DNA of 32,010 bases. Origin: a virus. Position 1 is the stretch's first letter. Each line of letters begins with the position of its first letter. Below the pieces are notes generated by a model. The model saw only the letters and a list, made by a program, of their open reading frames with translations. It did not search any database and was not told the origin of the DNA. Shown piece after piece: positions 1,184-16,521 of this stretch. Both the position numbers and the translations under genes were made by a program. Where the stretch lies: the IMG/VR virus record IMGVR_UViG_3300043466_002174, positions 1-32,010 of that record; one strand, 5' to 3'.

Positions 1184-1616
1184 TTCAGTAGTACTAGCAG
1201 GAAACGTCGTTGCGGACCCAATGGCCCGCAGCACTTCAACTGGAAAGAACATCGCTTCTTTCCGCTTGGCAGTTAATAACCCAATCAACGACAAAGACAC
1301 AGTTTTCATCGATGTCGATGTATGGGAGAAGCAAGCTGAGTTTGTGACAACTCACGTAAAGAAGGGCAGCAGCGTATCCGTCATTGGTCGCCTTAAGCAA
1401 GACTCTTGGGAAAAGGACGGTGAGAAGAAGACGAAGATTCTTGTTGTTGCCGATAGAGTAAACTTTGTTGGCGGCAAGAAGAAGGACGGAGCAGAGACTG
1501 AGGATGCCCCTCCTGCACCAAAAGCAGCCGCAAGACCAGCAGCAAAAGCTCCAACAAAAGCTGCCCCAGCAAAGCCTGCTCCCGTAGAGGCTGACGAAGA
1601 CGAAGTTCCAATCTGA
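1176..1616 (+). CDS. ssb: single-stranded DNA-binding protein (SSB)
   Basis: A 146-aa SSB that coats single-stranded DNA during replication and recombination. Residues 1 to about 100 form the OB fold: MINSVVLAGNVVADPMAR, FRLAVNN, FIDVDVWEKQAEFV, then KGSSVSVIGRLKQDSWE. A disordered Ala/Pro/Lys linker (about 100-136) follows, then an acidic tail ending DEDEVPI. The tail corresponds to the bacterial DDDIPF recruiting tip but ends in Ile instead of Phe. Codon use looks more GC-rich and regular than the neighbours, consistent with high expression. The gene overlaps the sigma gene and shares a TGATG with the next gene, so the cluster is coupled. Confidence 0.95.
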   Translation: MINSVVLAGNVVADPMARSTSTGKNIASFRLAVNNPINDKDTVFIDVDVWEKQAEFVTTHVKKGSSVSVIGRLKQDSWEKDGEKKTKILVVADRVNFVGGKKKDGAETEDAPPAPKAAARPAAKAPTKAAPAKPAPVEADEDEVPI

Positions 1617-2713
1617 TGAATATCCTCTTCGAAGCTCCATTGAATCAAGTTTCCTTTGGAAACGTAACCTATAACATCTTAAAGGTATTCTTTAAGAAGG
1701 TTCAGCAAGATCCTAGTTTTAAGGTTTCGTATTTTCCCATTGGGAATATTGAATTGTCCGCTTTCGACAAGATGCCAAAAGACTTTGCTCTTTGGGTAAA
1801 AAGCCTAGTTGATAATAGATTTACCAATCTATCAAAAGACGCTATTACCCTAAAGCTTTGGCATATCAATGGAGCCGAGAAGAGAATGACATCGCGTCAG
1901 GTGCTGCTGACTTTTTATGAACTTGATCAGCCAACTGTTGCAGAAAAAGCAATAGTTGGCTTTCAAGACGGAACCCTATTTTCTAGTTCTTATGCGGCAA
2001 ATTCTTTTATTGCCTCTGGTTGCCAAAATGTTCAAAGCATTCCGCTTGGATTTGATCCAGACTTTTACCTTACTGGCAAAAAGTATCTAGAGGGAAAGAT
2101 TAACTTCTTGCTCATGGGTAAATTTGAGAAGCGTAAGCATACCGATAAGATTGTAAAGATGTGGGCTAAAGCTTACGGCAATAATCCAAAATTTCAACTT
2201 ACTTGCTGCATTATCAATCCATTTCTTCCCAAAGAATTTACTCAAAAAGTTATAGCTTCGTATAAACAAATGGCTGGTAATATTAACGTGCTTCCATTTG
2301 TAACAACAAACTCAGAAGTTAATGACATCTTAAACTCGGCGGATATTGATCTTAGTGGTTTAAGTGGAGCAGAGGGCTGGGGCTTGCCAGCTTTTAACGC
2401 TACTTGCCTCGGCAAATGGAGTGTTGTATTAAACGCGACAAGCCACAAAGATTGGGCCACCAGAGACAATGCCATCCTTGTTGAACCAAGTGGGAAAATC
2501 GAAGCTTATGATGGCACCTTTTTCAAAAAAGGTTCCGACTTTAATCAGGGTAATATTTATGATTTTAATGAAGATGAAGCGGTTCAAGCTATTCAGAAAG
2601 CCGTAGCTCTCGCTGAAAACAAAGTACTTAATCAAGCTGGAATCAAACTGGGACAAAATTTCACTTACGAAAATACAGTTGAGAAAATTTGTAACACTTT
2701 GCGCGCCATTTAA
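1616..2713 (+). CDS. GT4-like glycosyltransferase
   Basis: A 365-aa GT-B fold glycosyltransferase. The N-terminal half starts with a Rossmann-like strand (MNILFEAPLNQVSFGNVTYN). The C-terminal half contains NFLLMGKFEKRKHTDKIV, typical of the GT4 second domain start, and GAEGWGLPAFNA at about 251-262, the acidic nucleotide-sugar binding loop. Donor and acceptor are unknown. It starts on the stop of ssb (TGATG), so it is co-transcribed with early-type genes, unlike the other glycosyltransferases here, which are in the minus-strand tail train. It could modify phage proteins, host surface glycans or DNA bases. Nothing in the sequence decides. Confidence 0.82.
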   Translation: MNILFEAPLNQVSFGNVTYNILKVFFKKVQQDPSFKVSYFPIGNIELSAFDKMPKDFALWVKSLVDNRFTNLSKDAITLKLWHINGAEKRMTSRQVLLTFYELDQPTVAEKAIVGFQDGTLFSSSYAANSFIASGCQNVQSIPLGFDPDFYLTGKKYLEGKINFLLMGKFEKRKHTDKIVKMWAKAYGNNPKFQLTCCIINPFLPKEFTQKVIASYKQMAGNINVLPFVTTNSEVNDILNSADIDLSGLSGAEGWGLPAFNATCLGKWSVVLNATSHKDWATRDNAILVEPSGKIEAYDGTFFKKGSDFNQGNIYDFNEDEAVQAIQKAVALAENKVLNQAGIKLGQNFTYENTVEKICNTLRAI

Positions 2714-3155: not shown

Positions 3156-3536
3156 ATGCCTCTGTATACTTACGAGAATCCAAAGACTGGCGAAACGATT
3201 GACGTGTTTCAAGGAATGAACGAGGAGCACTCATACATCGACCAGGAAGGACTTATTTGGAAGAGGGTATATCAGGTGCCCAATGCTTCAGTGGATGCCC
3301 AAATTGACCCGTATAGCAACACCTCGTTCGTTGATGCTACAAAGAACAAGAAAGGTACGTATGGAGACTTGCTAGACAAAAGTGCGGAACTTAGTGAAAA
3401 ACGTGCAAAACAGAACGGCGGCGTAGATCCAGTTAAAAATAAGTTTTTGAAGGATTATTCAAAAAGAAGAAACGGCGCAAAGCACCCAAGCGAAAAGAAG
3501 ACTTACGAATCAAATAGGGTTAAGGTCGAGTACTGA
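3156..3536 (+). CDS. FmdB-like small phage protein without zinc-ribbon cysteines
   Basis: A 126-aa protein starting MPLYTYENPKTGETIDVFQ. This matches the start of FmdB/CxxC_CxxC zinc-ribbon proteins (MPxYEYxCxxCG), but both expected N-terminal cysteine positions are occupied by other residues (ENPKTG), as in phage homologues annotated FmdB-like. The remainder (about 50-126) is charged, Lys-rich and probably disordered. The ATG at 3156 is preferred to an in-frame ATG at 3123, because the upstream one lies inside the terminator hairpin and adds a non-homologous extension. The function is unknown; DNA or structural-protein binding is possible. The 3' end overlaps the convergent heptosyltransferase gene by 17 bases. 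Confidence 0.65.
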   Translation: MPLYTYENPKTGETIDVFQGMNEEHSYIDQEGLIWKRVYQVPNASVDAQIDPYSNTSFVDATKNKKGTYGDLLDKSAELSEKRAKQNGGVDPVKNKFLKDYSKRRNGAKHPSEKKTYESNRVKVEY

Positions 3537-4671
3537 TAATTTTATCGATTTGTTTTATAACGTCTTCTGGCGTTATTTGCTTGGTGCATTCAAAGTCTTT
3601 ATTTCTTGGGCACCATTTCCAGTCAGACCTATCAAAAGCTAAACTTGGATCATTCCAGCAGCCGTTGCATACTTTTTCATTGATTATCCTATAAGGCGTA
3701 GAAAACTCTGCGAACGCCTTACTAAATCCGCTTATCAAAACTACTGGAACTCCGCACGCCCAAGCTAACCAAGATAGGCCAGAACCTAAACCAATAAAAA
3801 ATTCAGCCCCAGATATTTGTTCGATTCTTGTTTGAAGTGAGAAGTCCCCAGTTTTATCTATAGCGCCTTTAGGAATAAAATTAAAATTGCTATTATTTCC
3901 AAAACTTGGATATCGGTCTATGCACCAAACTTCGTAGCCAATCTTATTTAGATATTTTATTACCTCTTGCCAGCCATTTTTATTATTCCAGTACTTACAT
4001 TGAGCAGTACTTTGAGTAGCGATGCAAATATATTTTTTATTAGATTTTTTTTGAACGGCCAAATTTGGCCTTCTCTCTACTGGATCTAGACCAAGAGCCA
4101 AAGCTGGAATCTCTGTTAGTGAAACAGTTCTTGGATCTTTCTTTGTTAGGCCCTTCCAATCTTTAATTGGATAGCGAATCCTATACTCTGCATAAAAGTC
4201 ACTAACAAAATCATAATTGTTAAATTTGATAGCTGGATATTTTTCAGCAAAGATTTTGCATAAGTCTTTATTAAACACTACACAAGAAACATTGCATCCA
4301 TGCTTTAATCTGAATTCTTCAACAGCGCCGATATAGGCGATAGAATCTCCGAGGCTAGAGCTATCAAAAACTATTTTTACATTTTTCTCTTTTAAAAAAA
4401 GGGGCTCCTCTTTTATCAATTGGTCGTCTTTAAATACTTGGATCACCCAGTTTACGAAATACTTTGCCCTAGGCGATGCCCACATTCCAGTCTTCAAAAC
4501 AGTTTCGTAAACCATTTGCGAAGAGTCTTTATCTATAAATCTTACCTTAAAACTGCTTTCTGAACTTCCAGTTATTGTAATCTTCGCCCCATCATTGAAG
4601 GTAAACAAAAAATTAGCGTCATTAAAATTTCTTTTGGTATTTTGATAGTTATACGCCAATTGATATTTCAT
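3520..4671 (-). CDS. TibC/BAHT-like O-heptosyltransferase (GT9-type fold)
   Basis: A 383-aa protein resembling the bacterial autotransporter heptosyltransferase (BAHT; TibC/Aah) family, which O-glycosylates Ser residues on beta-helical surface proteins. An N-terminal beta-rich domain (about 1-95) is followed by a GT-B region (VKIVFDSSSLGDSIAYIGAV, then SGAEFFIGLGSGLSWLAWAC). Near the C-terminus is a cysteine motif characteristic of the family: C335, C338, C354 and C362 in the context VCNGCWND...WKWCPRNKDFECT, which binds a metal in TibC. It is the last gene of the minus-strand train, starting within the ATGA of the preceding GT4 gene. In a phage the likely acceptor is a virion fibre protein encoded upstream (inference). 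Confidence 0.8.
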   Translation of the reverse strand: MKYQLAYNYQNTKRNFNDANFLFTFNDGAKITITGSSESSFKVRFIDKDSSQMVYETVLKTGMWASPRAKYFVNWVIQVFKDDQLIKEEPLFLKEKNVKIVFDSSSLGDSIAYIGAVEEFRLKHGCNVSCVVFNKDLCKIFAEKYPAIKFNNYDFVSDFYAEYRIRYPIKDWKGLTKKDPRTVSLTEIPALALGLDPVERRPNLAVQKKSNKKYICIATQSTAQCKYWNNKNGWQEVIKYLNKIGYEVWCIDRYPSFGNNSNFNFIPKGAIDKTGDFSLQTRIEQISGAEFFIGLGSGLSWLAWACGVPVVLISGFSKAFAEFSTPYRIINEKVCNGCWNDPSLAFDRSDWKWCPRNKDFECTKQITPEDVIKQIDKIISTRP

Positions 4672-5597
4672 AAGCAGCTTTTGATCAAATCTATATTATA
4701 CTGCTCATCTCCATCTTTCAAATATTCTATATTTGCATACTTGTCGTACATATCGCAATATGAATTTAAATTATAAATTAGAGTTTTAAGCCTCCATCCA
4801 ATCGCCTCTCTAATCACAAGTGGCGAACATTCTTTTTTGGAAGTAAACACCATTAAGTCTGCGGCTTGATAAAATAAATCAACATCAGACCTTTCTGCCC
4901 ATATCTTACAGTTATCTGGCAAGTCTTTTGTTATCGGCCCCCAATAATCTTTGAAGTTAATGGCTAAGTTACCAACAAAATGAAACTGAAAATATGGCAG
5001 CTTTCTAGCTAATTCAATAAGCTCTCCCTGATTTTTACCCTGAGTAAATAGACCAACATTGATTATGTGTTTCTTTTTCGGATCAAACCCCAATGCGTCT
5101 TGAGCCATTTTCTTTTGTGGCTTTTTTAACTCAATAGGATACTCAACTATCTCAAATGGGGCGCCTAAACTCCCATAAAGCTTAGACTGATATTCAGAGA
5201 CGAATATAAACTTATCCGGTATGAACTTTTTGTTTTGAGGGTCAAAGTAAATGCCGTGTCCAGTTTCGAAGATTAGATAATTTCTATCTGAACTGTATAT
5301 CTTAGCACAAATTTCATTTCTGAGAAATGTTTCTGGGAATTCCTCGAAATGAACTACATCTGGATTTATATCTCTTATAAGCTCGATTAGATACTCATCT
5401 GGCTTTCCAGAAGCAGAATAAAATCTATCGCCCAGCAAATTTTTAATCTTATTCCTTTGAATAACATAAGCGTCCCCTAAAAACTTATGCTCTATGCAGT
5501 AAATTTGAAATAATGAGTTTAAGCTCTCTATCTTCTTTAGAAGGTACTGAGGAAGCCCCCCTGTAGATAAATGAGGAGAAATATAAGCAATTTTCAT
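4668..5597 (-). CDS. GT4-like glycosyltransferase
   Basis: A 309-aa glycosyltransferase starting MKIAYISPHLSTGGLPQYLL, the typical glycine-rich first strand-loop of GT4 enzymes. VVHFEEFPE and FVSEYQSKLYG fit the acceptor domain. NVGLFTQGKNQGELIEL opens the donor-binding domain, and E256 and E264 (ECSPLVIRE) form the E-x7-E motif that contacts the nucleotide sugar. The ATG at 5597 is chosen over an in-frame ATG at 5639, because it aligns with the family start and overlaps the upstream stop as TAATG. It lies between the dioxygenase and heptosyltransferase genes, which suggests a shared substrate. Confidence 0.87.
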   Translation of the reverse strand: MKIAYISPHLSTGGLPQYLLKKIESLNSLFQIYCIEHKFLGDAYVIQRNKIKNLLGDRFYSASGKPDEYLIELIRDINPDVVHFEEFPETFLRNEICAKIYSSDRNYLIFETGHGIYFDPQNKKFIPDKFIFVSEYQSKLYGSLGAPFEIVEYPIELKKPQKKMAQDALGFDPKKKHIINVGLFTQGKNQGELIELARKLPYFQFHFVGNLAINFKDYWGPITKDLPDNCKIWAERSDVDLFYQAADLMVFTSKKECSPLVIREAIGWRLKTLIYNLNSYCDMYDKYANIEYLKDGDEQYNIDLIKSCL

Positions 5598-6757
5598 TAA
5601 TCCGGTAAAGACCAATGCATGAAAAGTTGAACAACACATTCATTTGGCTCACAAATTAATGGCTGTCTCCAATGTTGCATTTTTGTTCCTAAAATCAAAA
5701 TTCCTTCTCCAACATTTGTGTTTGCAGCGATTTCATTGCCCTTTTTATCTATGCAGTATAAAGGCCATTCTTTTTTTAGAGTAGAAAATAAATTTACTGA
5801 AAGGGTATAATCCAAACCTGGTCGATCTACATGCTTTCCAAGCAAGCCTCCATTATAGTATATTCTGGCATATGTATGCTTATCTTTCCATTTAACTCCA
5901 ATTTTTTCAGAAAGATCTTTTGATATTAATCTCAAATAATCATCAAATCTTTTTATTGATCCGAGTCCATAAGAAGGCTTAAAAACACTTGGATCTGAGT
6001 TTGCCGCTGCCAATTGACCTCTATTTTCTGCTGTTAATTTATTAGAAAATTTTAAATAAAAAAGCTCTTTTGCGAACTCTTCGCATGTTTTCTGGTCTAT
6101 TATTCCTTTTAAAAAAGAATACCCAAATTCTTCAAACTTTTCTTTGTCGTGTGATAGTGTATAAGGTGGAATTTGAGGTTTTTTCTGATCAAAAACTCCT
6201 TCTCTGGTCCAGATTACAATTATATATTTTGTGCCAGAAATGACTGGGAGACCAGCATGATTTGATTTTTCATTAAGCTCTCCATTGACTTTTAAATTTC
6301 TCCAGTTAAATAAAGTTCCAATTGTGGGCTTTACTCTTAGTTCGTACTTCGGGAAATCCGTTTCACCCCCTTCAAAATCCTCATTTAGATAGAGGATAGA
6401 AGAAAAGACTCTTTGTCCGCCTCTAACAAGATGGCTCTTTGAGCTTTCTGCATTAGGATTAAAATAATCAAAATGATGTTTATACTCTCCTCCAACATCA
6501 TACTTAATAAAATGCGGCGCCTCTTGGTTTTCAATCGGCAATCCGGTTATAGAAGATACTATATTTTTTAGCTTTTGTATGACCTTATCTTCTTCGGTTT
6601 TTATCCAAGTCCCATTAGCTATTCGACCTTTGCTCTCTACGCTCTCTGTTTGTCCAACAACCTTTAATTTTTGAAGCTCAAGATCATATTTTTTTATCAA
6701 AGCCTCACACTCTTCTTTCGAAAGCAAATTCTTTAATTCTAATATTTCCTGTTCCAT
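5597..6757 (-). CDS. tandem 2OG-Fe(II) dioxygenase, prolyl-4-hydroxylase-like
   Basis: A 386-aa protein with two consecutive 2-oxoglutarate/Fe(II) oxygenase domains. Domain 1 (about 1-190) has the prolyl-4-hydroxylase layout: H95-x-D97 (HHFDYFNP), FNWRN, then H167 (NHAGLPV) with K177 as the 2OG anchor, and GGETDFPKYELRVKP before it. Domain 2 (about 205-386) has H309-x-D311 (GKHVDRPG) and a distal H362 (QHWRQPL), with a conserved-looking WPLY strand; its 2OG anchor is not obvious. Such enzymes hydroxylate peptidyl proline or other residues. The gene sits downstream of a protein with long proline-rich repeats and among glycosyltransferases, so hydroxyproline formation followed by glycosylation is plausible. 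It is coupled to the next gene by TAATG. Confidence 0.85.
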   Translation of the reverse strand: MEQEILELKNLLSKEECEALIKKYDLELQKLKVVGQTESVESKGRIANGTWIKTEEDKVIQKLKNIVSSITGLPIENQEAPHFIKYDVGGEYKHHFDYFNPNAESSKSHLVRGGQRVFSSILYLNEDFEGGETDFPKYELRVKPTIGTLFNWRNLKVNGELNEKSNHAGLPVISGTKYIIVIWTREGVFDQKKPQIPPYTLSHDKEKFEEFGYSFLKGIIDQKTCEEFAKELFYLKFSNKLTAENRGQLAAANSDPSVFKPSYGLGSIKRFDDYLRLISKDLSEKIGVKWKDKHTYARIYYNGGLLGKHVDRPGLDYTLSVNLFSTLKKEWPLYCIDKKGNEIAANTNVGEGILILGTKMQHWRQPLICEPNECVVQLFMHWSLPD

Positions 6758-6765
6758 ATCTTATT

Positions 6766-7848
6766 CTATGTTATTTTTTCGTATTTCCAATAAAAACTAT
6801 GCAGTCTATTCCAGTCGGCAGACTCTTTTTCCCAAGGATATAAATCATACAAGTATTTTCCATAATCAAAATTTATTCCTTTTCTATGAAAATCTTGCTT
6901 TTCGTTTACTCCTCTAATTATATTTATATAGTCAGTGTAAGTAGATAGCCTGCTTCCAAGAAAAACTTCTGCTTCCGAGCATATGATCTGATCTAAAACC
7001 ATGGCTTCATAATTTTTTAGATCTTTAAAGAAATCTTCTAAAAAAAATATTTTATAATCTTTTTTTAAAAAATTAAAAACTGTTTTATCCTTCTCGTCCG
7101 TAGCTATATACAATGGACTGCTATTTGGAATCTTATTTTTCAAATTAAATTGAAGTTCAAACATTTGATTTTCTACTGATTCTTTTCTTGCTGTTAAAAA
7201 ATCATTTCTTCTTACATGTATTGCATTAAAACTTTTTAATATATTTTTTACTTTTTTTCCTTCTTCAAAAAAATAATTTTTATATTTTATTCCATTTATT
7301 ATTTTATTTTTTATTAAATTTCTTTCAATCGGTCCATTGCCATAGACAAGATAATAAAAGTGCCCAAATAGATTTCTTGGAAAGTGTATGTATTTATCAT
7401 CCATGTTTATACATATTCCAGATCTTTCCTTTGCAAATTTTAGATAATCATTTTGACATTGGTTTTCGCAAAATATAAAATTATTTCTATTTATAGATTT
7501 TTGAGGAATCTTCCATTCATGATATTCGTCTGTAAATAAAATTAATTTTGCTATATTTTCAACTCCATGAAAATAATGAATTTCGTTTTCTAAAGACTTA
7601 TATTCATCGATATCATTGTAATCGATACAATCAAAATTTTTAATAAATAAATCTTTGTCCAAAACATTCCATATATCAAAAAAAGATTTTTTATTTTGCC
7701 ATTCAGAAAAAAATAAACAATATATTTTATAAGGAATTATAAGTTTCCTTTTTGTGATTATGCTTATTGCCGCCGCCATTTCATAAGACATCCTTATATT
7801 GCAAAATCCTCCCCACCAAGGGTCAAAAGATATAAAGTTTTTTTGCAT
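6766..7848 (-). CDS. protein O-fucosyltransferase-like glycosyltransferase
   Basis: A 360-aa protein with the motif series of the fucosyltransferase superfamily (POFUT/GT65-68 and relatives). WWGGFCNIRMSYEMAAAIS at 11-29 plus KRKLIIP form the GDP-binding N-terminal loop and first strand. HVRRNDF at 211-217 is the conserved HxRRxDF arginine motif. YIATDE at 247-252 and GSRLSTYTDYINIIRG at 298-313 match the C-terminal donor-binding motifs. The predicted reaction is transfer of fucose (or a related sugar) from a GDP-sugar to a protein or glycan. The gene begins one base after the stop of the Ig-domain fibre gene. Its DNA, especially 7000-7720, is much more AT-rich than its neighbours, which hints at recent acquisition. 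Confidence 0.72.
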   Translation of the reverse strand: MQKNFISFDPWWGGFCNIRMSYEMAAAISIITKRKLIIPYKIYCLFFSEWQNKKSFFDIWNVLDKDLFIKNFDCIDYNDIDEYKSLENEIHYFHGVENIAKLILFTDEYHEWKIPQKSINRNNFIFCENQCQNDYLKFAKERSGICINMDDKYIHFPRNLFGHFYYLVYGNGPIERNLIKNKIINGIKYKNYFFEEGKKVKNILKSFNAIHVRRNDFLTARKESVENQMFELQFNLKNKIPNSSPLYIATDEKDKTVFNFLKKDYKIFFLEDFFKDLKNYEAMVLDQIICSEAEVFLGSRLSTYTDYINIIRGVNEKQDFHRKGINFDYGKYLYDLYPWEKESADWNRLHSFYWKYEKIT

Positions 7849-7849
7849 T

Positions 7850-10800
7850 TTAATTCTCTTGTTCTGGTGGGGGCTCTGGAACGGGCTCGGGCTCTGGAAC
7901 GGGCTCGGGTTCTGGAACGGGCTCGGGTTCTGGAACGGGCTCGGGGTCTGGAACGGGCTCGGGTTCTGGAACGGGCTCGGGTTCTGGAACAGGCTCGGGT
8001 TCTGGAACAGGCTCGGGTTCTGGAACAGGCTCGGGTTCTGGAACAGGCTCGGGTTCTGGAACAGGCTCGGGCTCTGGCGTCGGCTCTGGAGTCGGTGTAG
8101 GCGTTGGCTCTGGAGTCGGTGTAGGCGTTGGCTCTGGAGTCGGTGTAGGCGTTGGCTCTGGAGTCGGTGTAGGCGTTGGCTCTGGAGTCGGTGTAGGTGT
8201 CGGTGTCGGTGTAGGTGTAGGCTCTGGAGTCGGTGTAGGCGTCGGTGTAGGTGTCGGTGTAGGTGTCGGTGTGGGTGTCGGTGTCGGTGTAGGTGTCGGT
8301 GTAGGCGTTGGCGTAGGCGCAGGGGCTGCTATTACAGTCAGTGTCGCAGTATTAGAAGTAGCCTCAAAAGCCGAAACCTCGGTACTCACAATGCAATAGT
8401 AAGTATCGCCGTTATTTCCAAGATAAGTAACTCCAACTTGAGTAAATGAATTACTGTCAGCCGCCCCAATGATTTCAGATCCGTTTCTGTACCAAGTATA
8501 ATGTAATGGACCAGAGCCATCTGCAACAACTGTAAATGTGGCATTGCCACCTTCATTGACGGAAATGCTGTCTGGGTGGTCTGTAATATTTGGATTTACG
8601 TAAAGAGTTGCAGCAGCAGAAGTGTCAGTTAAAGTAAATGATGAGTTATTGCCTACTATGCATCTGTATTGATAATTTTTAATCGCATTAGAGGTTGTTA
8701 CGCTATAAGAACTGGTAGTGGCGCCACCAATTACAGACCACGCGCTTCCATTATTAACCTCCCACTTATAGAATGTCGAAGGATTGCCAGCATCAGCAGC
8801 AACTGAAAATACTGCCTGATCGGTAACGTTTAGATAAATGCTGTCTGGATCATCCGTTATGACCGGCGCATAGTATACCGTAAGAGTGCTTATTGTAGAG
8901 TTTTGGACAGGTAGGCTAACCTTTGAACTATCTACGGCACAAAAATATTCTTTACCATTATCATTTTTTGAAGCATTAAATGTATAAGTATTGCTGGCAG
9001 AAGACTGAAGAAGCGTATCTGTTGGGGTTCCTCCTGGATAAGTTCTTAAATAAAAATCATACCCAAGAGTGCCAGCGCCAACCGCTGTAGTAACATACGA
9101 GACTGAAGCGCCTTCATTTACTGTTGGATTAGAAACTCCGTTGCCCAAAAATTGAGTAATTGTTATTGGCAATAAAGTCACTGTCATTTCGCAGGCTGAA
9201 CTCTGTTCAGCTTCTGTTCCAGCTTGAGTCGAAGATATTTCGCATCTTATGGACACTCCAGAATCATTTTCGTCAACTGTGTGATAAAAATTAGGAGAGT
9301 TTGCCCCAGCAAAGTTTTGCCAACCGGCACCGGCATTTTCTTGCCATTGGTACTGAAGAGTTGGGGAAGAGTCGCCTAAGACATAAAAGTTAATTACAGT
9401 ATTGTTTTGGCCGTTTCCAACCTGAGCCGAAACTGAAGCTGGAAGATCTGTAACTATTGTTGGATTCATATATAGCGTAGCTATATCTGAAAGAACGCCG
9501 CCTCTAGTATTATATCCAGAAACTCTATATTGATAATTTTTATTGCTTGGTTCTACACTTACCGAATAATTACTAAGAGAACCATTGCTTGGTACGGGGG
9601 TAAAACTACTGCTTCCTGGTGGCGCGTAATACCAAAGGTAGCTTGGAGACGGCTTTCCTTGAGCCAAGCTTTGAAAAGTAGCGACGCTACCGCGTTTTAC
9701 AAATTGATTTGTTGGTTGCAAATCAAAAGAAGGAATATATTCTACTGTCAAAGTAACTACATTAGACAAATCTGCTGTCATTCCTGCAAAAGAACTTGAT
9801 ACAATACATTGATATTCATTTCCATCGTCACCTCTTGAGGCTGTAAAAGAATATCCGCTACTAGTAGCTCCAGCAACAGAGCTTAAAGGCGCACCAGCGC
9901 CAGAATACCATTGGTAAGATAATGTTGGAGATCCGTCTGCAAAAAGAGCAAATGATGCAGTTGTATTTTCAAGAACACTTACATTTTGAGGCTGAACCAC
10001 AATATTGGGATCTACATAAACATAAATAGGGCCACCAGTTACATTTGCACCTCTTGTATTTCCGACAATGCATCTGTAGGCAAATCCGATATAATCGTTT
10101 CCTGCGTTTGTTAGAGTCAATTTGTCAGTGCTACTTCCAGCAAGACCCCAAGAAGACCCTCCATTCGTTGACTCCTCCCAAGAAAATGTTGTAGTTGGGC
10201 TTCCTGATTCAGATAAGAAAATAAACAAATCGTCTGAACTTCCAAATCCAGCTTTATTCATTATAAGGTTTGGAAATGGCGTAAGATAGTCTATTGTAGC
10301 TGGAAACGCTACAGTTAGTGTAGCTGCTCTACCTGTCTTTGGGATAGTTGGATAACCTTGTATATTTAAGCTATTAGATATTATGGGCCTAAATTTATAT
10401 TTATTTTGAGATTTTAAAGCTGAAAAAATAATATATTCAAAAGAATTACTGCTTTCTATATTGCTCCAAGTTGAACCTCCATTAGTTGACTGCTGCCAAG
10501 TGTAAGACAGACTTGATCCTCCAGCATCGCTTTCAAAAGTAGCAGAATCTCCGCTATCGACTACAATATCAAAAGGTTTATTATTGTTCTTTATATATGG
10601 CTGAATATATAAAGTAGAGTCCTCTGTTACATTTGATATGTATCCGTTTGACAAGAATACGGAATAAACTCCAGAGTTAGTTTCATTTTGTATTTCGAAA
10701 CTTAAAACGGGATCTGTTGAATAATTAACTCCATCCCATTTCCACTGATAGCTATTAACTGGTGGATTTGATCTTGTCAAAACTGTATAATTAACTAGAT

Positions 10801-12043
10801 CTCCAACCGAAAGTAAATATTGATCAGTAGTAATTGTGCCACCAGTAATCTGTAAATATGCAACATCTAATCTTGCCTGCCTTGTCCCAGTTTCCCAATA
10901 GCTTACGTTATCAGCTTTATAATTAAGTATATAACATCTATAAAATCCCGTATCAGCAACTTGAAGATTATCTATTTCTAAAACGGGGCTTTGAGCACCG
11001 TTATACTTTGCGCCGTTAGATAAATTAGTCCAAGTTCCATTTTGTAATTTTTGCCAATAAAACGAAGCGTCGGATCTGCCATCAGCGACTGTACTAAAAA
11101 TCAAATCGTTTTGATTTTCTATTCCTGTGATATCAGACGGCTGCGCCAGTACTGTTGAAGGGTAATATACAGAAACAACTCCCGAATTCGATCCAGAAGA
11201 TCCAATAGTATTTGTAGCCTCGCATATATATCCGTAATTATGAATAGTTCTTGGAGCATTTGCTATCTGTAAAGTCTTTGTCGTAAAGTTTTGATATAAT
11301 CCTCCTTCAGAAGTAGTGATATTTGACACTGTGCCTGCGACATTTTTTTTCCATTGAAACGTTAAGCTCGCCCCGCTTGGGTTACCGCTCGCCTCTATAC
11401 CAAAAGTCGGAGAATCTCCTTCATTAATAGCAATACTATCTGGCTGATCCCATATTTTTGGTGAAAATTTTATATTAGCATAAGCTATTTGAGAAAAGCC
11501 AGAAGCTTCTACGTTTTGAGCGTAGCACTTATAAAACCCTTGATCATTTAAATAAAGTGAGTTTGGCTTAGAATAGCCAGTTGTTTGGGCGCCAAAACTA
11601 GAACCAAGAGAAGAAAAATCAGCTTCTGTTATGCCAGAAAGATACCATTGATAACTTATTGGATCTATACCGCTTGCCTTAGCGGTAAATGCTACAGTCT
11701 GCCCTTCTATAATATCTATGTTTTGAGGGTTAACCAAAAACGTCATCACACCCTCAAATCCAAATCTTCTAAAAATATCTTTTAAATCAATGTATGTTTC
11801 CCCAACCTTTACAAAAAAATTTGTCGCAAAATTTATTCTATCATTTTCGCTGGTTGATTTGTGAAATATCCCAGATAAATCCAAAGAATTTACTTTAAAA
11901 AAAGTCTGAGTTTCTGTAAAAGAACCCGCACCAGTTTGCGCGGTAAATATTCCAGTTAGATCAAAATAGCCAGAGTCAGGTATATCAATGTTTACATTCT
12001 GTGGATTTGATATGTAAACCTTATAATTTGTCGGATCTGGCAT
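7850..12043 (-). CDS. giant Ig-like repeat virion protein with proline-rich C-terminus
   Basis: A 1397-aa putative tail appendage. Residues 1 to about 105 form a phage-type N-terminus with three DL(T/S/K)xIF elements. Residues about 108-1238 hold twelve Ig-like domains, each with a Q-P...EG...F start, a YQW-type strand and a closing YxCxVxN/S strand; most keep only part of the Ig cysteine pair. Residues 1241-1397 are almost purely Pro/Thr/Glu/Val: PTP repeats, then PTPTPTPE units, then eleven PEPEPV units, ending PPPEQEN. Ig-like domains on phages are thought to bind carbohydrate weakly and reversibly. The start overlaps the upstream S74 fibre gene by 23 bases. The downstream fucosyltransferase-like gene follows after one base, suggesting that the proline-rich tail is a modification substrate. 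Confidence 0.88.
7874..8071 (-). repeat. 18-bp tandem repeat x11 (PEPEPV units)
   Basis: Eleven head-to-tail copies of an 18-base unit (plus strand CTCTGGAACGGGCTCGGG and variants) encode PEPEPV. One copy carries E to D. Variation is mostly A/G at one position, splitting the array into two blocks (six with ACGGG, five with ACAGG), consistent with recent slippage duplications. It is in frame, so copy-number change would lengthen or shorten the stalk without a frameshift. Confidence 0.95.
8082..8177 (-). repeat. 24-bp tandem repeat x4 (PTPTPTPE units)
   Basis: Four identical 24-base units begin at 8082, 8106, 8130 and 8154 (each starting GGCTCTGGAGTC), followed by a fifth degenerate copy to about 8198. 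They encode PTPTPTPE. Identity at the DNA level including third positions shows recent expansion. Confidence 0.95.
8187..8320 (-). repeat. 6-bp GGTGTN repeat (PT dipeptides)
   Basis: Hexanucleotide GGTGTA/GGTGTC units with a few GGCGT(A/T) variants encode alternating Pro-Thr, interrupted by one PE. The block begins the proline-rich segment right after the last Ig domain. PT-rich linkers are classical O-glycosylated stalks in other proteins. Confidence 0.9.
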
Positions 12044-14336
12044 GATTTATTTTAATTTTCAAAGCATTTATTTCCGCAGAAAGCTCTTTTATCGCCTGAA
12101 TTAAAATTGGAGTTAACTTGCCATAATCAATTCCAACAATATCTCCTTTATTATTTAATCCTACAAGGTTAGGAATAACTTCGTTCACTTCTTCAGCAAT
12201 TAAACCAATATCATTTTTTAAATCTTTAGTTTTCCAATCAAAAACTACTGGCCTAAGTTTCGAAACAGTTTCCAAACCATTTTTTAAATTTTTAATTTTC
12301 TTCTTGAATCGTTTCGAAGAAGTCGATGTATATGTTGGCGCTTCAATACTTGTTTCAACTATTAATTTCCCACTGCCACTATTTGGCGCGCCGCTTTTAA
12401 CAGTGTCGTTTTGACTTCCAATAGTTACGGTTCCGTTTCTTTCTATAATCAATCTTTTAATTCCAATTAAATTAGCGCCTGAATTAATATCACTTCCATA
12501 ACTTGTTCTAAAAACTATAGATCCATCGTAAAAATCTGTAAATGAAGACGCCTCTGCATTTGACGTTGGATTTTTTTTATATCCAGCGGATAAAATTAAT
12601 TGGCCGTTTGCTTGCCCAGCCGGTCCAGTCGCATCAACGCCTACAAAATCTATTTGAGAGCCTCCTTGCACGCCATTTTCGTCTCCTCCCGTAATTGTCA
12701 AAACAGAAGTTTTATTTACATATCTTATTCCAAATCCAGAATTTATAGTTAAACCAACCCCAGAGCTTCCAGATGTAGACTCAGCAACAAGACTTCCATT
12801 TACTAATAAATTAGTCCCGTTCCACCTTAGATTATTACCAGTAGGATTTCCTATAAAAAATTGATAAATCGAGGTTGGCGTAGGCGTGCTTTCGGCAGAA
12901 CTATTTCCTAAAAAGAAACCAGGGCCATTTGTAAATGCACCATAAGCCCCAGAAGTTCCATCAGTTCCATTAAAACCAAGCCCTGCTGATTTTATGTAAC
13001 CTTGATCACCTATTGTTAAACCCTTTGAATCTATTCTTACGGAATCCTTAACATTTCCAAAATGCCCAGTTTTTGCCCAAATATCACCATCAATTATTGC
13101 GTCTGAAAGTTGAATTTGACCGCTACCTACAATTCTAAATCCTTGTATATCGGTTCTTGTTGATATATCGCCAGTATTATTTACTTCGTCCCAATATGTT
13201 GTCCAACTTGCTCCAGAACCAGGTTTATTTACTGAACTTGATGTGTGAGTTTGCCCTGTTTTGACTTTATAAACTTTATAAGCCCCAGCATAAATTCCAG
13301 TTGTTTGCTTTATTCTTACTCTTGTTTGATCAGAAGGTGTCGTTTTTATATCCTTGTACTGCTTGTTAGTAACCCACTCTTCTATAAAACTTTTAGACTG
13401 AATATATGAATTTTCATTTGGCAATTCTATAGCCTGAGAACTTAAAAATCCAGCAGTGGCTTTACCAATATCAACGGTTTCTATAATAGCTTCTGTTATT
13501 CTTACCCCCTGAACAGTGCCTGTTATTGTTGTTGATGAAACAGAACTGCTAAAAGGAGAAATTATGTAAGTTCCTACACTTCCAGTTCCAGTTAAAAATG
13601 CTTTAATGATTGGAGTATTAGGTCCATCAGGAACTCCACTTCCAGTCAAAACCATATTTAACCTTATTGGTCCAGAAGTTACTGCGGTTACTGTTAATGT
13701 GGCGGTTCCGTCAGTACCGCTTGCAGCTATTGAACCAGTAAATACAGCACTATAATTTCTAACAGCAAACGGAACTCCGCTAATTGCTCCAGCAGAATTC
13801 GTTATTTCAAAGTTATCAGCGACCATTACAAAATTTTTAGCGAGAGTATCTCCAACTTTAACAAGGCCAGAAACGTTTGAGTTTGCATCTAGCTGCAAAA
13901 GAGACTTTGTGCTTCTTTCCCAAACGCTAGTCGAAGAATTATAAACAAAAGCTTTATAATTACCGTTTGTAATATACCAAATATCTCCATTAGCTGGACT
14001 GGGATTGGTTATGGCTGGGGTCGGAACTGGATTTAAAATATTAGGATTTACCGCATTCCTATAATAAATTTGCACGCTTCCACTTGCAGAATTTTGACTT
14101 CCGTGTACTGAAGCAGTTGCTAGTTTTGCAATAGTTTCATTATATCCCATCTCATCCCAAAGCTCTTCATTTGTTTCTGGATTTACTACCTTGCCCTCAA
14201 AAACAATCCCTCTACTTCTAAAAAAATTACCTCTCTTTACCTTTTTGGTCCTTTTGGTAGAGTTCTGATAAAACAAAATCTCATCTTGATCATCAATAAT
14301 CGTCGCTTCTTGAAGGTCTGCGATTGTGCGGCTCAT
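12021..14336 (-). CDS. tail fibre/tip protein with C-terminal S74 intramolecular chaperone
   Basis: A 771-aa fibre protein. The N-terminus ([20 protein letters not shown]) and the segment around [20 protein letters not shown] with PFAVRN resemble the distal part of lambda J-like tail tip proteins. The middle is beta-rich and glycine-rich. The C-terminal 99 residues (673-771) are a Peptidase_S74 chaperone: SSKRFKKKI with Ser673 and Lys678 as the likely cleavage dyad, [42 protein letters not shown] and a final coiled coil. The domain trimerises the fibre and cleaves itself off. The usual Asp after the catalytic Ser is Ser674 here. The 3' end overlaps the Ig-protein gene by 23 bases. Confidence 0.88.
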
Positions 14337-14351
14337 ATGTTTATTTACAGT

Positions 14352-14370
14352 TAATTATTGGCAATAATTA
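14352..14370. other. 19-bp near-perfect palindrome in a gene junction
   Basis: TAATTATTG and CAATAATTA (perfect 9-bp complementary arms) flank a single central G. It covers the stop of the RCC1 gene and part of the 31-base gap before the S74 fibre gene, one of the few gaps in the minus-strand train. Symmetry with a one-base centre resembles a dimeric operator more than a hairpin. The function is unknown. Confidence 0.4.
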
Positions 14371-16521
14371 TATATTATATAGTCTAACTGGGGTATACGT
14401 ATTATAATTTCCAAGGGCGCCATATTCGCCAAGTCCAAAAGACCACCCTACATTATTTTCGTCTGTAACTATAAAGTGTTGCCCACCAGAATCTATCTTG
14501 CAAAAGCGTTTTTCAGAATTTACAGCGATAGGGGCACTTGTCATTCTCCAAACAAGGCCATTTTCATCAATCGCGCATATTCCAAGTCCTTGTATTTTCC
14601 CAGCGCTTAATTCGTTAAATTTTATATTTGCGCTTACTCGTATTGGAGTTCTGGTTGCTGTCCAGTTAGTATGACCCAAAGAATTTCTGAATCTATTATA
14701 TCCCCATGTCCAAAGGTTCTTATCTTTATCTATAGCGGCTGACATATTACCTCCAGCAGATATTTTACAAAATGTTGTGCTGCCATAAACTGTAACAGGG
14801 CTCGTTACATTTTGACCGAAGTCATTATTTCCAATTTGACCCCAGCTATTTAAACCCCAAGCCCAAATTTTTCCATAATTGTCTAATGCTAAATTATGTT
14901 GAAAACCCGCTGATATTTGACAAAAAGTTTTTGAATTTAAATAAGGCAAAGAAACTGGAGTAGTAACAGAGGCTATGCTGGCATCTAAAGTTAGATAGCG
15001 AAAGCTAGAGTTGTTTGCCCCCCAACCCCAAATTTTATTTTGATTATCTATAGCAAATGTAAATGACCCTCCAAATCCAACCATTATTTTACAAAAAGTA
15101 TTAGTTCCGTATATTTGAATAGGAGTCAATTTATAAGAAATTGTTGCTCCACCAGAATAATTATTTCCCAATGCTCCTGAAGCTTCGTTGCCCCATCCCC
15201 ATACTTTCCCGTTTTTATCAATAGCTTGTGTCCGATTAGCCCCAAAGGCTATTTGGCAAAAAGTCTTAGGTTGGCCTGCTAATTCAGTAGGAAACATTTC
15301 ATAATTTGATATTTTATTATTACCTATTTGAGCGTTACCATTATTCCCCCATAAAAAAACCTTACCATTTTGCTGTATCCCAGCAGACGTTGTAGGCCCC
15401 ACAGCTATAGAATTAAAAGTTTTTTCGCCACAGATCTTTCTAGGAATAAAATCTTCATAAAACCTATTCACGCCTAATTCTCCAACGCGATTTCTTCCCC
15501 ATCCCCAAACTCTACCATTTTTTTCAATTGCAATTACGTTTTCCCAACACATACTTATTTCACAAAATGTCTTTTTTTGACCTGAGATACTAACAGGAGT
15601 AAGAGTTGAAACTAATTGATGGCTATCTCCAAGCGTACCCCAAGTATTATTTCCCCATCCCCATACTTGACCGTTTTTATCAATTAGCGCAACAGTAGAG
15701 AACGCAACCCCTTTTGCAATTTTACAAAAAGTTGTGTTTCCATAAACCTCAACAGGGGTTAATGAACTTGAAGCACTTCCATTCCCAAGGTAATACGAAC
15801 CCCATGCCCACGCTTTTCCGTTTTTGTCAATAGCTAATGATTTATCGTATAGCACTGATATTTGACAAAATGTTTTATTACCATAAACATTAACTGGGGT
15901 TATTCTAGAAACATTAGACCCATCTCCAAGAGGATTAGATCCCCAAGCCCAAGCTTTACCATATTTGTCCAAAGCATACGAATTGACAAAGCCAATACTT
16001 ATTTGACAAAATGTCTTGGGGCCTCCATAAATAGCAGTAGGTGTTGATTTACAAACATTAGAATTGTCTCCTAATTGACCATAATAATTATCTCCCCACA
16101 TCCATATTTGACCATACTTATCGATTCCACCACAAAATCCACTTCCTCCTGATACTTGACAAAAAGTTTTATCTCCATAAACTTTTACAGGAGTTCTTCT
16201 AAAAGTGCCAGCATTAAGTCCATCTCCAATAATACCTGTTCCCCAGACCCAAGCAGTACCACTATCATCAAGAGCAATGACTGAACTTCCTCCAGATGAA
16301 ATTTCATTAAATATTTTTCCATATCCAAGTGTTTTAACCGGAGATGCAGCGGCGGTTTGAGAACTTATATTTTTATTTCCAAACGCAGAAACCACATTAC
16401 TGCCCCAAGCCCAAAGTTTTCCTTTTTGGTCAATTGCATTTGTTCCTCTTAAAGAATTAGTCCCTGCCATAGCAATTTTTTTAAATAGCTTTTCTGTATT
16501 TAATGATTCTTTTGCTTTCAT
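14368..16521 (-). CDS. RCC1-repeat beta-propeller tail protein
   Basis: A 717-aa protein built from fourteen RCC1-type repeats of about 50 residues. Each has an (I/L)D-x-x-GK-x-W-x-WG core (for example AIDKNGKVWGWGNE) followed by a TPVxVYGxKTFCQIS-type strand. Fourteen repeats would make two seven-bladed propellers or one double ring. RCC1/BNR-like propellers bind proteins or glycans; on a phage tail a receptor-binding role is likely (inference). There is no signal peptide. It lies one base downstream of a tube-like gene and directly upstream of the S74 fibre gene, inside the tail module. The many near-identical blades suggest expansion by internal duplication. Confidence 0.87.
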   Translation of the reverse strand: MKAKESLNTEKLFKKIAMAGTNSLRGTNAIDQKGKLWAWGSNVVSAFGNKNISSQTAAASPVKTLGYGKIFNEISSGGSSVIALDDSGTAWVWGTGIIGDGLNAGTFRRTPVKVYGDKTFCQVSGGSGFCGGIDKYGQIWMWGDNYYGQLGDNSNVCKSTPTAIYGGPKTFCQISIGFVNSYALDKYGKAWAWGSNPLGDGSNVSRITPVNVYGNKTFCQISVLYDKSLAIDKNGKAWAWGSYYLGNGSASSSLTPVEVYGNTTFCKIAKGVAFSTVALIDKNGQVWGWGNNTWGTLGDSHQLVSTLTPVSISGQKKTFCEISMCWENVIAIEKNGRVWGWGRNRVGELGVNRFYEDFIPRKICGEKTFNSIAVGPTTSAGIQQNGKVFLWGNNGNAQIGNNKISNYEMFPTELAGQPKTFCQIAFGANRTQAIDKNGKVWGWGNEASGALGNNYSGGATISYKLTPIQIYGTNTFCKIMVGFGGSFTFAIDNQNKIWGWGANNSSFRYLTLDASIASVTTPVSLPYLNSKTFCQISAGFQHNLALDNYGKIWAWGLNSWGQIGNNDFGQNVTSPVTVYGSTTFCKISAGGNMSAAIDKDKNLWTWGYNRFRNSLGHTNWTATRTPIRVSANIKFNELSAGKIQGLGICAIDENGLVWRMTSAPIAVNSEKRFCKIDSGGQHFIVTDENNVGWSFGLGEYGALGNYNTYTPVRLYNI

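Follow-up and report, generated by a model that had tools for sequence, protein, structure and literature searches.

Why would a virus encode, in a single chain, two oxygenase domains of which one has a canonical and the other a divergent active site, and what would such an enzyme modify? The question is raised by the IMG/VR virus record IMGVR_UViG_3300043466_002174 (positions 1 to 32,010; this whole stretch of 32,010 bases is called the window below), which carries a gene for a tandem Fe(II)/2-oxoglutarate (2OG)-type dioxygenase, D1D2. D1D2 adjoins genes for a tail protein rich in proline and for enzymes that add sugars, which leads us to suggest that in some phages the tail stalks are first hydroxylated and then glycosylated. 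In the mechanism that we infer, D1D2 would hydroxylate the virion protein at 7850-12043, encoded upstream in the same direction, on its Pro-rich C-terminal stalk. D1 would act on prolines of (Thr/Glu-Pro)n in extended conformation, while D2 may be a catalytically competent oxygenase too, with R364 as candidate anchor in a 2OG pocket that is re-arranged, adding a second oxidation, probably at a second position or residue of the same stretch. The flanking glycosyltransferases (O-fucosyltransferase-like, GT4 and TibC-like) would then put sugars on the hydroxyls, that is on hydroxyproline rather than Thr. Taken as a whole, this picture of a two-headed hydroxylase acting on a Pro-rich tail stalk that is subsequently glycosylated seems to us evenly poised between right and wrong. 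The gene and its parts are as follows:

5597..6757, minus strand: tandem Fe(II)/2OG-type dioxygenase, a D1-D2 fusion of 386 amino acids with an ATG start (open reading frame (ORF), PF13640 and PHROG matches, relatives of the same length).
6173..6757, minus strand: D1, residues 1-195, a prolyl-4-hydroxylase (P4H)-type domain with the H95/D97/H167 triad, the K177 anchor and Y92 (PF13640 and PDB matches).
5600..6157, minus strand: D2, residues 201-386, a divergent, predicted double-stranded beta-helix domain, phrog_2954 (AlphaFold2, Foldseek and VIA).
5825..5833, minus strand: HxD metal-ligand motif of D2, H309 and D311.
5666..5674, minus strand: H-W-R motif of D2, with the distal ligand H362 and the candidate anchor R364.

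The original prediction had described a tandem dioxygenase with one canonical and one divergent domain, and this observation holds. The ORF is real, ORFs of the same length being present in six other IMG/VR contigs (71-100% identity), the two domains are recognised independently (PF13640 and phrog_61; phrog_2954), and the residues then named (H95, D97, H167, K177, H309, D311 and H362) do sit at those positions. Its interpretation is supported in part, and it missed both the widespread phage pair to which the domains belong and the surrounding Pro-rich virion protein and glycosyltransferases. Among deposited phages no near DNA match to positions 3500-14500 of the window was found, and a search of the region for promoters and terminators was uninformative, with counts close to those of shuffled sequence. 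The predicted full-length structure has a predicted template modelling score (pTM) of 0.51, so the relative placement of D1 and D2 is not fixed. Profile-profile comparison of D1 with D2 gave a probability of only 7.3%, but did align their HxD motifs and their distal His residues.

Judged by its sequence, D1 belongs with the prolyl 4-hydroxylases of Chlamydomonas and Bacillus type. It matches PF13640 at 3e-13 and phrog_61 at 2.1e-24, and its best PDB relatives are Chlamydomonas P4H (2jig, 3.4e-26; 3gze, 3.5e-26) and the Bacillus-type P4H 5iax (3.5e-26). The HxD...H metal triad of P4H is present (H95, D97, H167) and, together with Y86 and Y92, is invariant across 40 aligned D1 sequences. A basic 2OG anchor is found as K177, at +10 from the distal His, a position occupied by Arg in 17/17 D1-only rows of the alignment, and Y92 aligns with the betaI-betaII loop tyrosine of the Chlamydomonas enzyme (Cr-P4H). 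The 3GZE structure contains (Ser-Pro)5, and in it Tyr140 of the betaI-betaII loop touches the target proline (PMC9676403). Chlamydomonas P4H-1 (2jig, 3gze) and the Bacillus-type enzymes (5iax, 3itq, 5hv0) thus share with D1 the fold family, metal triad, Lys anchor and betaI-betaII tyrosines, and the use of a Pro-rich peptide by the algal enzyme resembles the substrate proposed for D1; however, they are single-domain proteins with no second barrel, are not of phage origin and are about 30% identical to D1. It had been suggested earlier that the two domains might hydroxylate different residues, for example Pro and Lys. Pro is plausible as the D1 target, while nothing was found in favour of lysine hydroxylation.

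The identity of D2 is less immediate. Residues 207-382 match phrog_2954, which is labelled ferrochelatase, at 3.3e-23; D2 gave no match in Pfam at E<=10, and a profile of 15 D2 sequences gave no relevant match in the PDB. An AlphaFold2 model built from 85 sequences reached a predicted local distance difference test score (pLDDT) of 93.3 and a pTM of 0.89. Foldseek ranked the P. putida P4H entry 4iw3 first among PDB structures (1.3e-10), followed by Dictyostelium PHD, AsqJ, SnoN and PHD2, and VIA-align (Z 17.5) superposed D2 on 4j25, 5ep9 and 6n1f with root mean square deviations (rmsd) of 3.0 over 170, 2.6 over 173 and 2.3 over 166 residues, respectively. On this model D2 is a divergent dioxygenase with the double-stranded beta-helix fold, and the alternative raised in the original prediction, that D2 might fail to adopt it, is not what structure prediction returned.

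The same model bears on the ferrochelatase label, which is attached to phrog_2954 and found in cyanophage and pelagiphage records. A BFVD entry of cyanophage S-SM1 that is named ferrochelatase matches the D2 model with an rmsd of 1.7 over 125 columns. The Pfam ferrochelatase family matched 0/15 D2 proteins at E<=1 and gave nothing in 10 further scans at E<=0.1, some proteins being in both sets. Neither the Pfam domain nor the fold of a ferrochelatase was therefore found in D2. Because D2 has an oxygenase fold, fits the BFVD entry and matches no ferrochelatase model, the label of phrog_2954 is unsupported, and that D2 should be a ferrochelatase is hardly conceivable to us. The label is in use in ecological papers; for the phrog_2954 and phrog_3531 proteins of the compared loci L009, L010, L012-L016 and L018 (L numbers are names of compared loci or contigs throughout) it is likewise unsupported, these proteins being double-stranded beta-helix oxygenase-like.

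Residue conservation in D2 was counted over 162 unique sequences of at least 165 amino acids, out of 166. The HxD...H metal triad of Fe(II)/2OG dioxygenases is present, and H309, D311, H362, R364 and Y300 are kept in 162/162 sequences, R298 and R312 in 160 each, Q377 in 158 and H381 in 156. The invariance of R298, H309, D311 and R312 is partly by construction, as the main recruitment patterns contain them; H362 and R364 occur in no main pattern, the HWR stretch having served as a pattern in only two other searches, of which one gave six near relatives and the other none. Some D2 relatives were found only via the Pro-Thr (PT) tracts described below. Five of them (L238, L276, L275, L318, L392) carry HxDD...HWR without R312, so that HWR is universal there and R298/R312 are not; L271 keeps HVDR and HWR, and the second domain of L256 has HxE instead of HxD and HGR instead of HWR.

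The original prediction had found no clear basic 2OG anchor in D2, and indeed, judged by the anchor positions of other oxygenase families, there is no Lys or Arg at the usual spacing after H362. The strand of the usual anchor carries Q377, and L306 (Leu in 153/162) stands in place of the P4H loop tyrosine; D2 is therefore not filed as a prolyl 4-hydroxylase. The finding needs refinement in that conserved arginines are not lacking elsewhere in D2 (R298, R312 and R364), and the invariant R364, as the most constant basic residue, would be the candidate 2OG anchor. The closest solved folds, P. putida P4H on EF-Tu (4iw3, 4j25) and PHD2, are about 12% identical to D2 and have the P4H tyrosine, whereas D2 has Leu306, and R364 in H-W-R; both presumably carry the usual basic anchor.

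The lack of a basic residue at the usual place and the Leu at the tyrosine position would also suit a non-catalytic peptide-binding or dimerisation module holding the substrate for D1, and a mere binding role had been considered from the start. Against this speak the retention of H309, D311, H362 and R364 in every counted sequence (one relative, L256, has HxE), a D2-type gene in L275 that adjoins a PT tract and sugar genes with no D1 in its stretch, and stand-alone D2 relatives in bacterial nonribosomal peptide synthetase (NRPS) clusters. Such relatives lie within an NRPS cluster of Brasilonema (L177, 5749-6420, plus strand) and beside NRPS-like genes and a PhyH oxygenase on a Cyclobacteriaceae contig (L202, 5779-6402, plus strand). 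A binding module is thus quite improbable in our view. The D2 relatives of L177 and L202 are possibly tailoring oxygenases.

Is the fusion a peculiarity of one phage? The D2 survey comprised 209 D2 ORFs in 205 loci, forming 135 clusters at 80% identity, and used a D1 profile that had been extended over four rounds. D2 is fused to D1 in 13/135 clusters (11 as D2-D1, two as D1-D2), and a D1-type ORF is its same-strand neighbour in 83, with a gap under 60 nucleotides in 81 of these. In seven clusters D1 lies on the opposite strand, and in 32 no D1 occurs within 600 nucleotides, nine of the latter being near a contig end. By a common definition applied to the same loci, an immediate same-strand D1 neighbour is found for 65/106 unfused D2 genes vs 133/945 other genes. 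The link is strong in virus loci; among bacterial genome clusters 7/28 are fused or same-strand adjacent. Since 96/135 clusters have the domains either fused, in one order or the other, or encoded side by side on the same strand, D1 and D2 are a widespread two-enzyme unit (phrog_61 and phrog_2954) and not a one-phage oddity.

Among phage isolates (cyanophages and pelagiphages), a 2OG-Fe(II) oxygenase gene immediately precedes the D2-type gene in L009, L010, L012, L013, L014 and L016, but not in L015 and L018. Pelagiphage HTVC023P has the two genes separate, whereas Synechococcus phage S-T4 has them fused. These genes belong to the same two domain families and are usually one-strand neighbours, whereas in the window the domains are fused in one chain and D1 is nearer to cellular P4H. 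The opposite domain order occurs in S-T4, S-SCSM2R and L394; in the D2-D1 fusion of the last, D2 resembles that of the window and D1 is P4H-like. Two further arrangements were noted, namely a short contig with two ORFs of each type, D2 and D1 (L041), and a run of seven D1-type oxygenase ORFs beside structural genes (L397, 6506-13006, plus strand).

What D1D2 might modify is suggested by its neighbours. Along the direction of transcription the order is S74 tail-fibre-like protein, Ig/Pro-rich virion protein, O-fucosyltransferase (O-FucT)-like protein, D1D2, GT4 and heptosyltransferase:

12021-14336, same direction as D1D2: tail-fibre-like protein with an S74 chaperone domain.
7850..12043, minus strand: Ig-domain virion/tail protein that ends in a (TP)n/(PEPV)n region, the candidate substrate (Ig_3, 5.1e-48; phrog_3995 tail protein, 1.3e-39).
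7865..8323, minus strand: DNA for the alternating-proline tract of about 150 amino acids (tandem repeats at 7871-8319).
6766..7848, minus strand: O-FucT-like glycosyltransferase, PF10250 (41.9 bits, cut-off 31.5; human POFUT2, 9.1e-5).
4668..5639, minus strand: GT4-type glycosyltransferase (PF00534, 33.8 bits, cut-off 26.4).
3520..4671, minus strand: Aah/TibC-type O-heptosyltransferase of the BAHT family (TIGR04414, 373.6 bits, cut-off 200; TibC 4rap, 1.2e-80).

The last 163 residues of the virion protein comprise 78 Pro, 35 Thr and 30 Glu, arranged as (TP)n and (PEPV)n. The order O-FucT, D1D2, GT4, heptosyltransferase is kept, as far as the contigs reach, in six relatives (L002, L003, L006, L101, L102 and L007, the O-FucT gene being cut in L007), and those contigs that extend far enough have the Pro-rich Ig protein upstream (L101 and L102, and its end in L006). 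In L101 and L102, D1D2 is 96-98% identical to that of the window, against only 34-35% for the Ig part; despite this divergence the Pro-rich tail is present in all those relatives, with differing repeat units. L104, which is among the D2-only relatives closest to the window, encodes in succession a (PT)n protein of some length, a glycosyltransferase with DXD (PF04488) and D2, with a D1-type gene convergent to them.

The TIGR04414 score places the 3520-4671 product in the Aah/TibC family. It shares the Cys spacing 3-16 with TibC/Aah heptosyltransferases (4rap, TIGR04414), from which it differs in being a phage gene product, in a last Cys spacing of 8 rather than 12, and in that the window holds no autotransporter. 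Its C-x2-C-x15-C-x7-C cluster resembles an iron finger. The main text of the BAHT paper has no word starting with "phage" (PMC4358343). The glycosyltransferases 3520-4671 and 4668-5639 are 52-74% identical to those of L003/L101, beside a D1D2 that is 98% identical, and this drop suggests exchange of sugar genes by recombination. At 14368-16521 on the minus strand, the structural region encodes a protein of RCC1 repeats (PF25390, 5e-131).

An independent line of evidence comes from a scan of viral contigs for DNA able to encode (PT)10, in which oxygenases were not used. It was evaluated on 120 stretches among the matches listed, with 64 loci picked by an arbitrary 15-mer as controls, 50 of which were searched with Pfam families. 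Our own D1/D2 profiles matched in 13/120 listed PT loci vs 0/64 control loci, and on whole records PF13640 matched 19/120 listed PT records (7, 7 and 5 of 40) vs 0/50 controls (Fisher p 0.001). For PF11397, a family founded on the Skp1 hydroxyproline N-acetylglucosamine (GlcNAc)-transferase, the figures were 14/120 (9, 2 and 3 of 40) vs 0/50 (Fisher p 0.011), the control search giving no match anywhere, 14 named genomes included. Furthermore, in 10/12 loci the PT ORF is followed on its own strand by an oxygenase gene within 1.2 kb, where 3.1 were expected for randomly picked genes and 0/20,000 permutations reached 10; L317, whose D2 match is fragmentary and without HxD, was left out of this test. 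The PT-linked D1 sequences represent three or more lineages, all distinct from that of the window, namely a group of about 50-94% identity, L271 (about 27% to that group) and L256 (34% to the window D1).

The fullest cassette lies on one strand of L392 (2285-7651, minus) and comprises the PT tract, a small gene, D1, D2, a radical SAM gene, a PF11397-type transferase and an epimerase. L256 carries a PT tract, a D1-D2-type fusion (1389-2627, minus strand, 28 nucleotides downstream of the PT-tract ORF), a radical SAM gene (own profile) and PF11397. In L230, L238, L258, L275 and L276, D1, D2 or both precede an epimerase and a gene that we take from its motif to be fucosyltransferase-like, Pfam having given no match. 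The profiles GT60 and GT11 (presumed family names), EPIM and RSAM were built from PT loci, so their counts there are by construction; the PF11397 and PF13640 counts are unaffected.

Several observations weigh against the proposed stalk hydroxylation. An alternating-Pro tract is present in only 9/205 D2 loci over the stretches fetched (the window clade, L104 and the doubtful L192), and most D1/D2 pairs are not near Pro tracts, so that the general substrate of the pair would be something else or broader. Conversely, 107/120 listed PT loci have neither D1 nor D2, and the PT-linked loci are not all independent (D1 of L237 and L258 is 94% identical). The Skp1-type combination of P4H and PF11397 is present in L237, L256 and L392 but not in the window, among whose ORFs scanned with Pfam there is no PF11397 gene. 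D2 itself lacks the usual anchor and has L306 for the loop tyrosine. Finally, PBCV-1 encodes a P4H, yet hydroxyproline was reportedly not detected in its virions (PMC7019647); this enzyme, also virus-encoded, differs in being single-domain and from an algal virus. Collagen-like Gly-X-Y was rejected as a general substrate: tracts of at least 8 triplets occur in 8/205 D2 loci (L064 and L113 being one contig) and are mostly Pro-poor.

The scarcity of Pro tracts at D2 loci is in line with another explanation, in which D1D2 is a general phage hydroxylase of proteins or metabolites acting on host factors (e.g. EF-Tu or ribosomal proteins) and merely occupies the usual spot for variable cargo near tail genes. 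The structure that D2 matches best in fold is that of P. putida P4H in complex with EF-Tu, on which that enzyme acts, and 21/28 bacterial genome D2 clusters are without a fused or same-strand adjacent D1, some of them in NRPS clusters. However, the oxygenase-blind (PT)10 scan found P4H genes directly downstream, far over expectation and controls, and the window clade retains the cassette while the Ig part diverges; we therefore consider a host-factor hydroxylase unlikely, though to be taken seriously. A different assignment concerns the sugars. With 35 Thr beside 78 Pro, the tract may be O-glycosylated on Thr by the flanking glycosyltransferases, D1D2 acting elsewhere in the virion, and the families that the TibC-type and O-FucT-type enzymes resemble act on Ser/Thr (BAHT paper, PMC4358343). 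This would leave unexplained the P4H genes at PT tracts in several D1 lineages and the PF11397 genes, and it appears to us distinctly unlikely, more so than the host-factor reading.

The hydroxylation and glycosylation of a Pro-rich stalk by D1D2 and its neighbours would be comparable in logic to plant extensins and to the Dictyostelium Skp1 pathway (PhyA, Gnt1, PgtA), where prolyl hydroxylation is followed by sugars on hydroxyproline. There, what the P4H produces is used as substrate by Gnt1 and afterwards by PgtA (PMC3515798). Related phage loci carry P4H and PF11397 in the same manner, but the Skp1 pathway is cytosolic and eukaryotic and concerns one proline of Skp1, whereas the glycosyltransferases of the window are others and the phage pathway is a putative one. 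In its strongest form, the proposal is that some tailed phages own a complete hydroxyproline-O-glycosylation pathway, in which D1 and D2 would act on (Thr-Pro)n/(PEPV)n stalks, PF11397-type, fucosyltransferase-like and TibC-like enzymes would then add sugars, and D2 would be a new type of 2OG oxygenase with its anchor Arg two residues past the distal His. This we advance tentatively, as somewhat more doubtful than the reading of the window itself.

In one open-access library, no report on phage hydroxyproline or on tail modification by a prolyl hydroxylase was found, and three things appear to be new: the fused or coupled oxygenase unit, the fold and HWR signature of D2, and the association with glycosylation cassettes and with tail genes that carry PT tracts. 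The two families have been seen before, as phrog_61 and phrog_2954 are reported to be enriched in seasonal marine viruses and to co-occur, being treated in that study as a 2OG oxygenase and a ferrochelatase (PMC11561400). So far they have passed for auxiliary metabolic functions that are unconnected with each other. Should phrog_2954 be one partner in a pair of oxygenases, there would be no ground left for interpreting these genes in terms of haem or iron metabolism, and the link to PT tracts would then offer a specific hypothesis on the substrate for some, at least, of these abundant genes.

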